64,000 nucleotides of DNA, taken from assembly GCA_964035545.1 (NCBI GenBank), contig OZ037768.1, forward strand, positions 7,865,241 through 7,929,240. Reading direction: 5' to 3'. A program made the position numbers and the translations under genes. The notes beneath the pieces were generated by a model. That model was not told the origin of the DNA. It saw only the letters and a program-made list of their open reading frames with translations, and ran no database searches. Shown piece after piece: positions 23,601 to 32,600 of the stretch (positions within the stretch are counted from its first letter, which is position 1; each line of letters starts with the position of its first letter). Source of the stretch: Bugula neritina (taxonomy: Eukaryota; Bryozoa; Gymnolaemata; Cheilostomatida; Bugulidae).

Positions 23601-26600
23601 CCAGAAAATTTTGTACTAATTGAACTAAACAAATCCGTGCACATGCATAATAATTATGCATATTACCTATGTAGAGCAGATATAGCATGATAGCATAAAT
23701 AGCATGATTAATAACTCTGTTATGTAGTAGAAAGTGCTCAGTGACTGGTTTGCAGGCAAATAGTTTTTTATATTAAAACATGAGTCTATGATTTTCAGCT
23801 GCCACCTCTGGCAAGTCGCACGGCTTGAGGCAGAACATTAAGAATTTCTCTAGTGACTCGAAAGGAACGAGTTTAAGCAACAACCATGATAAAACTAAAG
23901 GTATAAACTCTTACCATAATGATAGTAATGACATTTCCAATAGTAGTAAAATGTAGTTTAAATAGTTTTAAATGTAATTAATATTACCATATTATATATT
24001 TTGGCAATATGTTTGTACATTTTGTAATAACTATGACTGGAACTATTACTATTACGCTAACTCGCATCATTATCTTGAAAAGGACTGAGTTTAATTACAA
24101 CTGCTATCAACTTTATTCTTTTTGTAAAGGTTTTAGCAATTTTACTGTTAACTCTTATAATTTTCCAAAGGAACTAAATCAATTATCAAACAAGTTTTTG
24201 TGTGAATCATTTGTTCTGTATTTCACCTGTAACTTTGCGACTACATTCGTGCTATGTCATCATTTTACAGGCACAGATATGAAGCTAAAAGTCTCTCCTT
24301 TCAGTTCTGGTTTAAAAACAAGCGCATTTCGCACATCTCTGCCTGTGTTTACAAGTAAACTTCGTAACCATTATGGGCGTCAAGGAGGTGCCCTTAAGCT
24401 GCAGTGCAAAGTCGATGGGGAACCCAAACCTGTCATCAGTTGGCATAAAGAGGGCAAACCGCTGTCATCAAATCATAGAATACAGGTAATGCCATATTAA
24501 TTACACTTTATTTATATTTGTTAGAAAAACAAGTGTAGGAGAATTTAGTTGGAAAGGCATATGGGAACAATTTTACTGGGCAAATATTGGTGACCTTTTG
24601 AGTTTGAGCGGACTTTTTTCTTCATTGAGCTCTATTTATAAATTTATGTTTTGGTTCAATTTATGTTTTACAAAATTTGACTGATCAGATCAAGGTATTA
24701 AGTTGTAAAAGTTGTAGTTGCTTGCTGTATGCATAACATACTGTAAGGGGTTTTTGTTATCTCAGTTGGGAATCAGCTTTTGATTACATGTGTTTTGTGT
24801 TATATATGAGTGTGTGTAGTAATTTGGGCGGCGCAGGATTTCACCAATTAGTGATTATGTTTTACAACTTGTCTATAGTAAAATGGATATGTATTTGGGC
24901 TGTAGCAAAAACTATGCATTCTGGAATAAACTGGTATGACATTGAATTCACAGTGTGACATGGAATGGAAGAATTCACCACATTTCAATTGACCTCTTTT
25001 GCTATACACTATATTATGATGCTAATTATTAGTTTTTCCAAGTTAATTATAGCATAAACAACATAACTGTAACTGGTCTTAACCTAAATTATCGGCACCT
25101 TGCATATAGTTAGAGTATTTGTGAGATAAACCTTAGATGCCCTTTCAAGTAGTAAAACCATTTTAACTATTTTCACTTCACTCTTGCTTGTAGATATATG
25201 AGAAAAATGGAGTGCATTATTTTGAGATTACTGACTCAGTGAAAGAAGATTCTGGAAGATATACAGCGGAAGCAGTGAACTCTAAAGGCAGTGTCTGTAG
25301 TTCGGCTGATGTAAGATATTCGGTATTCTTGTGTTTAGTAATCTCTCAGAGTGTATGCTGATTCAATTATGAGTATAATTATATTTATATAGCACTGTAT
25401 TGCTAAAAGATTAGAACTTACTTAACAACTGAGAACATCATACAATGTATATTATGTTTATTTAGTCATGGTGTACATCTACTTCAGTAATTCACTACTG
25501 TGCAATTAATATGTGGCCAGTACTACTGCTACTGCTATACAAAACAGAATTTAATACCATTTAGTTAGTCAATAATACACTGGATGGAAAAACAAATAAA
25601 GATATAAAAATATATTTTTTATATCAAGTTTTCTGTCTATGTAAAATTTCCTGTGTCTCAGCTTCCTAAACCACAATTACTCAAGATGCCATTTGCAATA
25701 ATCAGAGGTGAATGTGTTTACCATGTAATGTAATACTTTGTAACTGATCTAACACATCTCATTGCAGTTTATGTTGATCTGAATATCAACCAATTATACT
25801 ATACTTACTACATATTGTGAATGTCTTACATAGTTGCATTTTGTCTATGCATTCAAACAAATTGTTTTTATAATTGGTGTCCAATCACTTGTTCCATATA
25901 AGTTTAATGTTTAAATATATGTGGAATTTTGGAAAAAAAGCTTAACAGTTATTTTATAATAGGCTATGTAATGTGGCAAATACAATAACCTCCATTTTTG
26001 CAGGTTGAAATAGCAGGGAAGAAACTTACTACGCCTGAGCAGAAAACTCCTTCCACAAAATTTACAAAAAAGACTGACCCTTCTACATCCGTATCTGATA
26101 ACATTACTAAGCAGGTTGGTACTGTTGCACATGTACACAAAAGAGAAGATATACAAATTTCAAACGCCAACTATGCAAGAGCTTTTACAAAAATTTGTAT
26201 TTCAGATTTTTTTATAATGATTAAATATTAAATATTGTAAATATTGAATATATATTATATATTATTCAATTAAGCCGCTGCTATTCCAAAAATGAAAGTC
26301 CCAATATTGTACAGGTTGAGGAGTTTCATGCAGAAGTCAATGAGGCTATGGCAGAGCTGGATGGCCTGTCACCATACTCGTCAACCTATCACCACACTGC
26401 ACACAGTGATCACACAGTAACCCCGCCTTCTTTCACTCTTCATCTCAAAGACTGTGAAGTTAAGGAAGGAGAAAGTTTAGATCTTATTTGTGCTGCTCAG
26501 GGTAAATGTTTATTGACTATTTTATTATTTTAACAAATCTTAAGACATTAAGTAATTTTTCCCAAAAACTTTTATATTATTTTTCAGAAAAAATGTCAAA

Positions 26601-29600: not shown

Positions 29601-32600
29601 ATTGCAATGGATACTTCTAATAGCGATTAAATATAATATAGCTGTCATAGAAACTAGTTTCAAATTTTTTGAAAGGCACTTATTTGTTATTTGATTACTG
29701 TTATATAAGTTACTAAGTTAGTAAAAGGGGGATGAAGTGATGAGTTGAGTAATTATGACTTTTTAATTTAATTGATTGAAATAATTTGATGATTACTTTT
29801 GGTGTAACAGTTTGTTTTTATTTTGATTAGCTGACACAACATTCACAGCAACAGGATTAGAACTCTAAATTCATTTATGAAATACAAGTTCTCAAGACCA
29901 GTTAGATAAATTCACAGCAATATTTATAAAATTAAGTACCAGAAACTAGAAATATCTAAAATAATATTTTAAAAGATGCCCCAGTTTAATTTCTTTTAAA
30001 TTACTTACTTTAATTATAAATTTTCATTTTTATTCATATCAGAATTGTATGTCACTTACAACTGTCATTCACTGTGCAAGCCCAGCAGGTGCTGATAATT
30101 CCAATGGCACATAACTAATGACTATTACAGAGTTGTCAGATGCTGAGATCAATGAAGGAGATTCACTTATAATCTCATGTGGTCAGATATCTCCAATAGC
30201 AACTTCTGTCACCTCACACACCGACTCTTCAACTGATGAACCAGTGTCACAGGCTGCGCAACTACCTCCAGCCATAGCCGTGGATCTGACGGACCTCGAA
30301 GTGACTGTTGGACAGAAGGCAGAGCTTGTGATGGAGACAACCGGTGAGTTAACATTTCTGGCATAAAGCCTTGGTTAGCTTTATACTGCTATATACTGTT
30401 AGTTGTTGATTGTTCACTTTTCATTTAGTTTTTAATTCAAATTGCCAAACACAATCAAATAAAAATGAGCAAAGATTTTAAAAGTATGATTTCAACATTG
30501 GGAAGTACAAATAAATTATGTAGTCAATAAGCGAAAACATATGTAACTAAAAATAAAGCATGTTAGCCTGACCGTTCAATTTTGATAAGACTTTAAAACG
30601 CCAGAGTACTAAAGTTTACTCAGCATAATATTCTAACAATGGTGGAGACTGGACACATCTTAAATGACTCTATTCTTTCAAACAGATGTTTGCAACTGCA
30701 ACTAGTGAAATTGGGACTATTTTTTATTTACAATTATTAGTTTTACTTTCGAATCAAGAGACAATAAGATAAATGCAGGATGTGAACTGAAAATGATGCT
30801 CACAAAATATTAAATTATAAAAAGAGTAAATTTTGGAATGCCGTCTTGATTCTTTAGGGCTATATTTTGTGTGTGAATATATTGATTTTGAGGTGGTGGC
30901 ATGAACCTGCTCGTACCTTTGTCCAACAGGAGAGGGAAAGCTAATGTGTGGATGGCTAGCCAATACCCCTTTAGTTATTTCCTATGCTCGTTATCTGTGT
31001 AGGCTCTTTACCTATGGATATAGTTTGGGTTCACAATGAAGATGAGCTTGCCCCTGATGATCCCGACTACGTTCAAACTTCTGAAGGTCATGTTCACCGC
31101 TTGCTAATATCGGCAGTATTCCCAGAGGACAGCGGTACCTACATTTGTGAAGCCTATAATGACTATGGCGAGGCTGATTCAGCTTGTGAGCTGCATGTGT
31201 TAGGTGTGTTCACATGTGCTTCTACTTCCTAGTTCCTACTTACTGCTGCTTTTCGCTGCTGGTCTGGTCTGTCTGTCTGTCTTTCTAAAATGCTATGCTG
31301 CCTTATTTAAAAACAAATTTACATTTGAAGTTTATAATGATATGAGCAACTGATTGTTTAAGAAAATATTCTTAAAAAACATGGGCTTTGGTTTTTTTAG
31401 ATAATGTGACTACAGATGTAAAACCTTTAGACCAAAAACCTCAAATTTTGCAGTCATTGCCAGAAGCTTTAACAATCGCTGACGACAGCACATTAGAACT
31501 TGTGTGTAAAATTAGCAATGTTAAACCTGAAGATGTCAGGTGGAATAAAAACCAAAGAATGGCTCGGAAAGGTAGCAGGTTTCAGGTAACTAGCTGTACA
31601 CTTGAAAAATTTATCAAAAGCAAAAAGTAAAAAAACTTCGACGAGGATGGGATTCGAACCCACGCTCCCAGAGGGAAATGGATTAGCAGTCCATCGCCTT
31701 AACCACTCGGCCACCTCGTCGTCATGCGAGGTCGGGCAAATAATATTAGTCAGATCTGTCAATAGTAATTGTTGAAATATTCAATTTGATTAGATATCAA
31801 CACAGCTGCGTTTATATTGATGACATCATGCTTATTACATGTATCAAAGCTACATTACCCAATATAATGTTTACCGCGCAGCGATGCGAAGCTATAGATA
31901 TAATATTTTCAAGCTATAAATAAATTGTAGGTAGCTAGTTTATCACAGTCTTTGTTACGGTTAAAAGGTGTGTAGTAGTCTCTAGTCTCTACCAGGGCTT
32001 CCTTTATTACCTACTACTTACTAACATCGAATTCTGTTCTATAATATACTTTTTAGTTATCATTTGACAACAATTATAATATAACTTTTTATTTTCTTTT
32101 CAGTTTTAATAAGTGGAACTGCCCACGGTTTTCAAATAACATTCTGGATGATCATGGTTTTGAAAATAGGATTAGATTAATAATTAGATTTTATTTAATT
32201 GTTATTTTATTTAATTTTAGTTTAGAGAGAAAGTTGGTGTTTTCATAAAATTCTGTGAGCAGAAATAGTTGTATATTGATTGATACAGTGCTAGATTTTA
32301 CAGTATTGTTACTTCCAATTGCTTTTCATCCCTAGAAATTAGTTGTTTGGCCATTTTTATAGTAACACAAATGGGTGGTAAATGTTGTGACAGGATCACC
32401 TCGGTGACTCTATCACATGCCAGAACTAAATGTTATCTTGTGATTAATAGGCTACATCTGAAGGCCAAGTGTACAGCTACAGAATAAGTAACTGCATGAG
32501 CATAGACAAGGGAGTCTACACTGTAACAGGAAGTAACGAGTTCGGAGAAGTTAGCTGCAGCTGCACCGTCTCTTACTCCAACGACAATCGGTATAGAAGA

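Follow-up and report, generated by a model that had tools for sequence, protein, structure and literature searches.

Tandem first halves of Ig domains in a bryozoan myosin light chain kinase: possible strand donors that fold on binding

Introduction

Ig folds are usually regarded as all-or-nothing, and loss of the half that comprises strands C to G is expected to be fatal. Among the closest described systems are some in which a part of such a fold is supplied from elsewhere. According to PMC5222588, in vertebrate muscle the third Ig domain (Ig3) of obscurin-like-1 has no strand A, and a linker of myomesin completes this partial I-set domain in trans, with rupture at ~135 pN (piconewtons); in chaperone-usher pili a donor strand from one chain completes the incomplete Ig-like fold of another. 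Two further papers (PMC8470474, PMC7916673) present an Ig protodomain hypothesis in which half an Ig is the unit, and tie it to mid-domain introns. The subject here is a gene for myosin light chain kinase (MLCK) of the bryozoan Bugula neritina, and within it a tandem array of nine first halves of I-set Ig domains. The gene lies in a window of 64,000 nucleotides (contig OZ037768.1, positions 7,865,241 to 7,929,240 of the forward strand), and coordinates below are those of the window.

The array is real and is conserved in the one other bryozoan found. Tentatively, at somewhat less than an even chance, it is read here as a true component of bryozoan MLCK, under selection and derived from tandem I-set Igs by loss of their C-G halves, with the units acting as fold-on-binding strand donors that tether the kinase. 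In two bryozoan families nine to eleven first halves have been kept, with buried faces constrained like those of whole domains, and the array is in that respect a natural test of whether a partial Ig fold, serving for example to donate strands, can be kept stably as a unit in evolution. It bears also on how the domains flanking MLCK set the position and the force response of the kinase.

The half-Ig array

Each of the nine units consists of a 22-residue core corresponding to strands A-A'-B of an I-set domain, and a Ser-rich linker of 11-29 residues (the first-pass annotation had given 10-25); the total is 348 residues. The array sits between intact Igs at 24342-25310 and 30268-31203. Its units start at 26426, 26771, 26879, 27706, 27933, 28047, 28760, 29340 and 29460, and the seven exons that carry them (26315-30343) have GT-AG borders and a single open frame that continues to the kinase stop at 43557.

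26315-26501, 26742-26911, 27640-27799, 27928-28079, 28652-28764, 29240-29475 and 30131-30343, + strand: the seven array exons
26426..26491, + strand: core of half-Ig unit 1 (P-x-F...C), with an intron in codon 26, phase 1
26771..26836, + strand: core of half-Ig unit 2
26879..27672, + strand: core of half-Ig unit 3, with intron 26912-27639 after codon 11; Val for Cys
27706..27771, + strand: core of half-Ig unit 4
27933..27998, + strand: core of half-Ig unit 5
28047..28684, + strand: core of half-Ig unit 6, with intron 28080-28651 after codon 11, phase 0
28760..29300, + strand: core of half-Ig unit 7, with intron 28765-29239
29340..29408, + strand: core of half-Ig unit 8, one residue longer, whole in one exon
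29460..30180, + strand: core of half-Ig unit 9, with intron 29476-30130; its linker ends at 30267

The nine tandem units had been noticed in the first-pass annotation, and the continuous frame and a Pfam search agree with that description: a 350-residue piece of the array matches I-set (PF07679) with an expectation value (E) of 4.5e-22, the best stretch being profile positions 1-28 of 90. Chance similarity to I-set is ruled out by this value and by the ortholog from Watersipora described below. Cys is kept in eight of the nine units, the exception being the third, with Val, and not the second where the loss had been placed. The core Trp of strand C and the D-x-G-x-Y-x-C of strand F are missing from all nine (9/9), just as had been remarked. 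Exon 29240-29475 had been credited with two complete units: unit 8 is indeed whole within it, but unit 7 is there from its third residue, its P-K being in the preceding exon. In the linkers Ser makes up 23%, Ala and Gln 11% each, and Pro and Thr 9% each.

That the gene encodes MLCK, which had also been proposed from the sequence, is borne out by its kinase domain (Pkinase E 1.8e-75, Pfam), for which the nearest solved chains by sequence are MYLK4 and then twitchin (PDB), and by the MLCK architecture around it, with Fn3 before the kinase and a telokin-like Ig after it both present.

Are the second halves hidden in the introns?

A C-G profile was built from 52 second halves of database proteins and run over 24-44 kb in all three forward frames, on open stretches of at least 20 codons. 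It recovers whole or partial second halves of the flanking Ig domains, at 6.5 to 54.7 bits, but between 26138 and 31013 its single match above 2 bits in those frames is one of 2.7 bits at 30453. A 9-residue, 8-bit match lies 5' of the array at 26111-26137. Since the profile finds the flanking second halves and nothing above 2.7 bits in that interval, it is very unlikely, going by the sequence, that the half units are a product of missed exons; missed C-G exons between units receive no support from the scan, in accord with the earlier dismissal of such an artefact. When units 5-9 (210 residues) were searched against the 216-Mb genome with a tool that scores its best candidates only, there were eight matches at E up to 10, seven in the MLCK locus and one elsewhere, at E 2.24.

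Might the region nevertheless be an artefact or in decay, whether through missed exons, as a pseudogene or as a neutral remnant? The array was read from genomic sequence, and on the Watersipora side too the protein is a gene model from a database, which leaves such a reading some room. With frame and splice sites intact, the same array in an ortholog, introns that gave no C-G halves and a pN/pS of 0.46 (below), it is hardly to be credited.

A second bryozoan

The MLCK-like model of Watersipora subatra (Bryozoa, Cheilostomatida) has 2138 residues and 45% identity over the 541 residues searched, and alone among the best 120 of 176 matches it covers the whole array region. At the same place in the protein, residues 709-1134, it has 11 half units. 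The first-pass annotation had counted absence of the repeats from related species, along with neutral substitution, against its reading; the one other bryozoan found has them.

Units 1-5 are of equal length in Bugula and Watersipora (35, 36, 33, 33 and 38), and the third unit is without Cys in both and has V-H-G-x-H-D-x-H in common. Pairing units 1-6 like with like gives 87 identities; the 720 possible pairings average 70.5, and 5 of them (this one included) reach 87. Because of the equal lengths, the Cys-less third unit and the like-with-like pairing, the array, to judge from these comparisons, most likely is older than the split of the Bugula and Watersipora lineages, the number of units having changed since. 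Watersipora units 9 and 10 have 18 of their 22 core residues in common.

How widely such arrays occur was judged from 241 database proteins chosen by similarity and length, namely the best 120 of 176 matches, the best 120 of 1494 and 5/5, with P0001 common to all three listings and two other proteins recurring. A loose motif scan of 120 proteins, which has no second-half check, gave short-spaced runs of 6 in Watersipora, of 3 in two fish obscurins (P0034, P0087) and of 2 in six others (P0015, P0027, P0050, P0093, P0104, P0105); the runs in these last eight were unconfirmed by the later profile and stricter motif scans. A profile of all 20 units, applied to 239 sequences (238 listed database proteins and the window's own), finds runs in the two bryozoan proteins only, and the next-best pair, in the low-quality fish obscurin model P0101, looks like an Ig truncated after the Trp. 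The stricter motif scan of 242 sequences (the 241 listed and the window's) gave no further array and one spurious overlap, in P0021. A third search, of 7979 candidates of about 850-2690 residues, had five matches; Watersipora alone spans the array, and the other four have no array in the motif scan. A profile search of the units in other proteins, as had been advised at the outset, was rewarded in Watersipora and gave no array in any other of the 238 listed proteins scanned. No further bryozoans are among the legible names of the listed proteins, those names being partly incomplete. In a scallop MLCK-type model (Argopecten irradians P0123), residues 977-1006, at a different place in the chain, are a lone Ig first half with no Trp or Y-x-C after it. 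Either an error of the gene model or a half domain of independent origin could account for it; it is one unit and no array. A 104-residue piece of the array has no match at E 0.01 among solved structures, and the titles and abstract starts listed, mostly of open-access literature, hold no description of tandem half-Ig repeats.

Constraint on the half units

For eight ortholog pairs of units, counted with omission of window unit 8 and Watersipora units 8, 9 and 10, whose partners are unclear, the cores are identical between species at 117/176 positions (66%) and the linkers at 42/124 (34%). Elsewhere in the same protein intact Igs are 53-72% identical between the two species, and three other linkers 26-41%. 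At the six core positions which we take, on general I-set geometry, to face inward into the sandwich, identity is found in 43/48 cells, compared with 24/24 for P1/E14/G15 and 50/104 for the remaining core. Five intact Ig pairs, with one residue dropped in two of the five domains to hold register, give 25/30, 12/15 and 32/65 respectively. Over the 20 units of both species the inward positions are hydrophobic in 118/120 cells, and the others in 45/260. Because the pattern of inward identity matches that of intact Ig domains, the half units are, as far as aligned residues can tell, under the constraint expected of sandwich halves.

Compared with one another, the nine units of the window have a mean proportion of non-synonymous differences (pN) of 0.36 and of synonymous differences (pS) of 0.78, with pN below pS in all 36 pairs (36/36), and the ratio is 0.46 where 200 codon shuffles average 0.96; this ratio mixes motif ancestry with later selection, and the species comparison is the stronger evidence. 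The ortholog, the contrast of core with linker and the pN/pS ratio together sustain the original claim of selection on the half unit.

Origin of the array

From the 238 listed proteins 13 non-bryozoan MLCK-type proteins were hand-picked for comparison, and in nine of the 13 there is a clear homolog of the first intact Ig after the array (scores against the next reference are 243 vs 117 in Lingula, 245 vs 99 in Gigantopelta and 161 vs 109 in Mus); it is not clear in Ciona, Ptychodera, Cacopsylla and Trichoplax. In all nine (9/9) a complete Ig precedes the homolog, at a distance of at most 31 residues except in Mytilus (97). Because of that complete Ig, the simplest reading is that C-G halves would have been lost in the bryozoan line, the intron evidence being from one genome. 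Unit 1 and the first post-array intact Ig both have, in the exon table, a phase-1 intron in codon 26, just past strand B, and such a loss agrees with the intron of unit 1 lying where a C-G exon would follow. In three other intact Igs the intron is further along and of phase 0, and the telokin-like Ig has none.

Which Ig was the parent? Scores are mixed, the best being with the domain just before the first-post-array-Ig homolog in Lingula, with the one two before it in Owenia, and elsewhere in Argopecten. Units 3 and 6 both have a phase-0 intron after codon 11, and duplication of a two-exon block was considered as a candidate; the intron positions agree with it, but core identities single out no pairs. 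The intron within unit 3 contains an inverted repeat with 42-base arms from 27280 and 27397 (39/42 complementary) and a 15-base tandem at 27424-27469, together like a short inverted-repeat mobile element.

Predicted fold and possible function

With AlphaFold2 and five sequences, mostly paralogous pieces, the two-unit exon has a predicted local distance difference test score (pLDDT) of 52.6, a predicted template modelling score (pTM) of 0.26 and no DSSP elements. The telokin-like Ig of the same gene, with five sequences that are orthologs, has pLDDT 94.2, pTM 0.83 and eight strands. As the two alignments differ in quality, all that follows is that an autonomous fold of two units is not predicted. 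By charge and hydropathy the linkers of both species plot as disordered, and the unit cores are near the dividing line, just on its compact side in the window and just on its disordered side in Watersipora.

Could successive halves pair with each other, or with the same stretch of a second chain, into composite beta sandwiches? Inward residues are retained, and PMC8470474 has Ig halves treatable as protodomains and able to swap. Set against this self-assembly are the want of a confident fold for two adjacent units, odd unit counts (9 and 11), linkers that range from 11 to 37 residues across both species, and units without strands C and C' of the protodomain, all of which make it decidedly improbable.

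The main rival is an entropic spring or spacer, i.e., an extensible chain without fold that separates the kinase from the N-terminal part, in which the motif would mainly reflect ancestry under mild constraint. The Ser/Gln/Thr/Pro/His-rich linkers with their disordered character, the lack of a confident predicted fold for two units, the variation between species of unit number and later linker lengths, and the discussion of smooth-muscle MLCK (smMLCK) as force-regulated in PMC5505704 are all congenial to it. The data suit a simple unfolded spring less, since positions of the buried face are as strictly conserved as those of intact Igs (43/48 vs 25/30), and the first five linkers are constant in length though divergent in sequence, with 0 gap events in 65 residues where ~3.9 would be expected; that expectation comes from five other hand-picked linkers (17 gap events in 285 residues), and the chance of none, ~0.02, is post hoc. 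We regard a spring as somewhat unlikely.

The reading preferred here starts from the same constraint. The C-G halves of tandem I-set Igs would have been lost and the A-A'-B halves retained and multiplied. Each half would retain the face that an Ig sandwich buries and would probably be unable to close the fold alone, and a buried-type face lacking its other half should be buried elsewhere. Each unit would then be one of many weak, disordered A-A'-B strand donors that become ordered upon completing or joining the Ig sandwich of a partner muscle protein or of another copy, and the array would anchor the kinase at multiple sites of the contractile lattice via extensible links. From constraint we infer complementation, just as we infer derivation by loss, fold on binding, and multivalent tethering and stretch; Ig completion in trans is proposed because the pairing of obscurin-like-1 Ig3 with the myomesin linker gives a muscle precedent. 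Taken at its fullest, the proposal is of a new, bryozoan-derived repeat type whose tandem half-Ig donors form composite sandwiches with candidate muscle partners and make a force-sensitive multivalent tether, and in that form it is unlikely.

Several points weigh against the preferred reading. The six inward positions were assigned on general I-set geometry. What myomesin donates in the precedent is short strands (LS', LS''), and not an A-A'-B piece with its own core residues. The AlphaFold2 result of no fold was for one two-unit piece, with five sequences that were partly paralogous. Unit number differs between the species (9 vs 11), and Watersipora unit W8 is degenerate, with no Cys, Leu changed to Trp and Gly to Asp, which suits a loose spacer. 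Lastly, S17 and D9 are near-fixed though expected to face solvent, beyond what sandwich completion alone would ask: S17 is kept in 19/20 units (95%) and D9 in 17/20 (85%), compared with 58% and 42% in 50 intact A-B segments that were found by their likeness to the units.

This near-invariance of expected solvent-facing residues speaks for a second role for the outer face of the units, and favours an alternative, next after the spring, in which the array is a strip of linear motifs, each unit being a short peptide, with E-G-D-S-V/L-T-I as its motif, that would be recognised by actin, myosin, a kinase or some other non-Ig partner. After P1/E14/G15 the strictest group is the inward hydrophobic positions, as in intact Igs, and not the solvent face, and such a strip is rather improbable. 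The actin motif DFRxxL of vertebrate MLCK was also considered; the units have an F-x-x-x-L spacing but no D-F-R.

The gene and its surroundings

The window has a GC content of 33.7%. On its + strand 25 exons of the MLCK gene are readable, from a giant exon (~16.9-23.0 kb), whose end was set by phase and whose start is approximate, to the stop at 43557. The 24 exons 3' of it have AG acceptors, GT donors (or the stop) and a single open frame of 1539 residues, and the joined model has 3592. C-terminal to the array the domain order is Ig-Ig-Ig-Fn3-kinase-calmodulin-binding-like stretch-Ig.

24342..25310, + strand: intact I-set Ig 5' of the array, two exons (exon table, C-G profile, sequence comparison)
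30268..31203, + strand: first intact Ig 3' of the array, in two exons, with 72% identity to its Watersipora counterpart
31401..35848, + strand: two more intact Ig domains, four exons (exon table, Pfam)
37028..37797, + strand: Fn3 domain, two exons (Pfam)
38243..40674, + strand: protein kinase domain (Pfam, comparison with solved chains)
42817..43557, + strand: last exon, with the remainder of the calmodulin-binding-like stretch, a linker, the telokin-like Ig and the stop

A stretch of 18 residues after the kinase resembles what we take to be the calmodulin-binding segment of smMLCK, and around this candidate 24/26 residues are identical in Watersipora. The giant exon (16871-23030) encodes ~2050 residues, Ser/Thr-rich and with two copies of an EFYADLK motif, and the first 2000 residues, which were scanned, have no Pfam match. 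The exon may be alternative or lineage-specific because the Watersipora model is without EFYADLK and only ~450 residues separate its first two Ig domains.

Introns of the MLCK gene also contain a tRNA-Ser (GCT) on the minus strand (31638-31721) and a run of 18 G (33793-33810). Downstream on the same strand, 47587-63455 has exons with I-set Ig, a RhoGEF match, a PH match under cut-off and, at 57.2 kb, an SH3-like stretch without Pfam match; read unjoined, these exons probably belong to an obscurin/UNC-89-like gene directly 3' of the MLCK gene. Further away, at contig positions 7038541-7143701, ~100 kb with dozens of I-set matches, several in open frames of 841-1207 codons, is probably a titin/twitchin-type gene.

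Comparison with known systems

The elastic PEVK segment of titin is dominated by Pro, Glu, Val and Lys. The linkers of the array differ, being richest in Ser (23%) and not of PEVK composition. With the I-set Ig domain (PF07679) the units share strands A-A'-B with their P, F, L, EG, V/L-x-I/L and Cys; they differ in having no core Trp, no D-x-G-x-Y-x-C and no C-G half found in the introns. The order Ig-Ig-Ig-Fn3-kinase-calmodulin-binding-like-Ig is common to this gene and the smooth-muscle-type MLCK (MYLK) of animals, but in nine of the 13 proteins compared a complete Ig stands before the homolog of the first post-array domain, and among the proteins scanned only the two bryozoans have the half-Ig array.

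The likeness to the obscurin-like-1:myomesin pair is that of an incomplete I-set Ig in a muscle protein, which in that pair is completed by strands of another chain. There it is strand A that the Ig lacks, and one Fn3-Fn3 linker acts as donor, whereas here tandem A-A'-B halves are the putative donor. Chaperone-usher pili, on the same account, are bacterial and use a single inserted strand, with no tandem of half domains. The protodomain of the hypothesis mentioned at the start is A-B-C-C', whereas the bryozoan unit ends after B, and that hypothesis concerns ancient origins, whereas the bryozoan halves would be due to a later loss in one animal lineage. The array is thus one of Ig-derived repeats, but of half domains, within a known kinase family.

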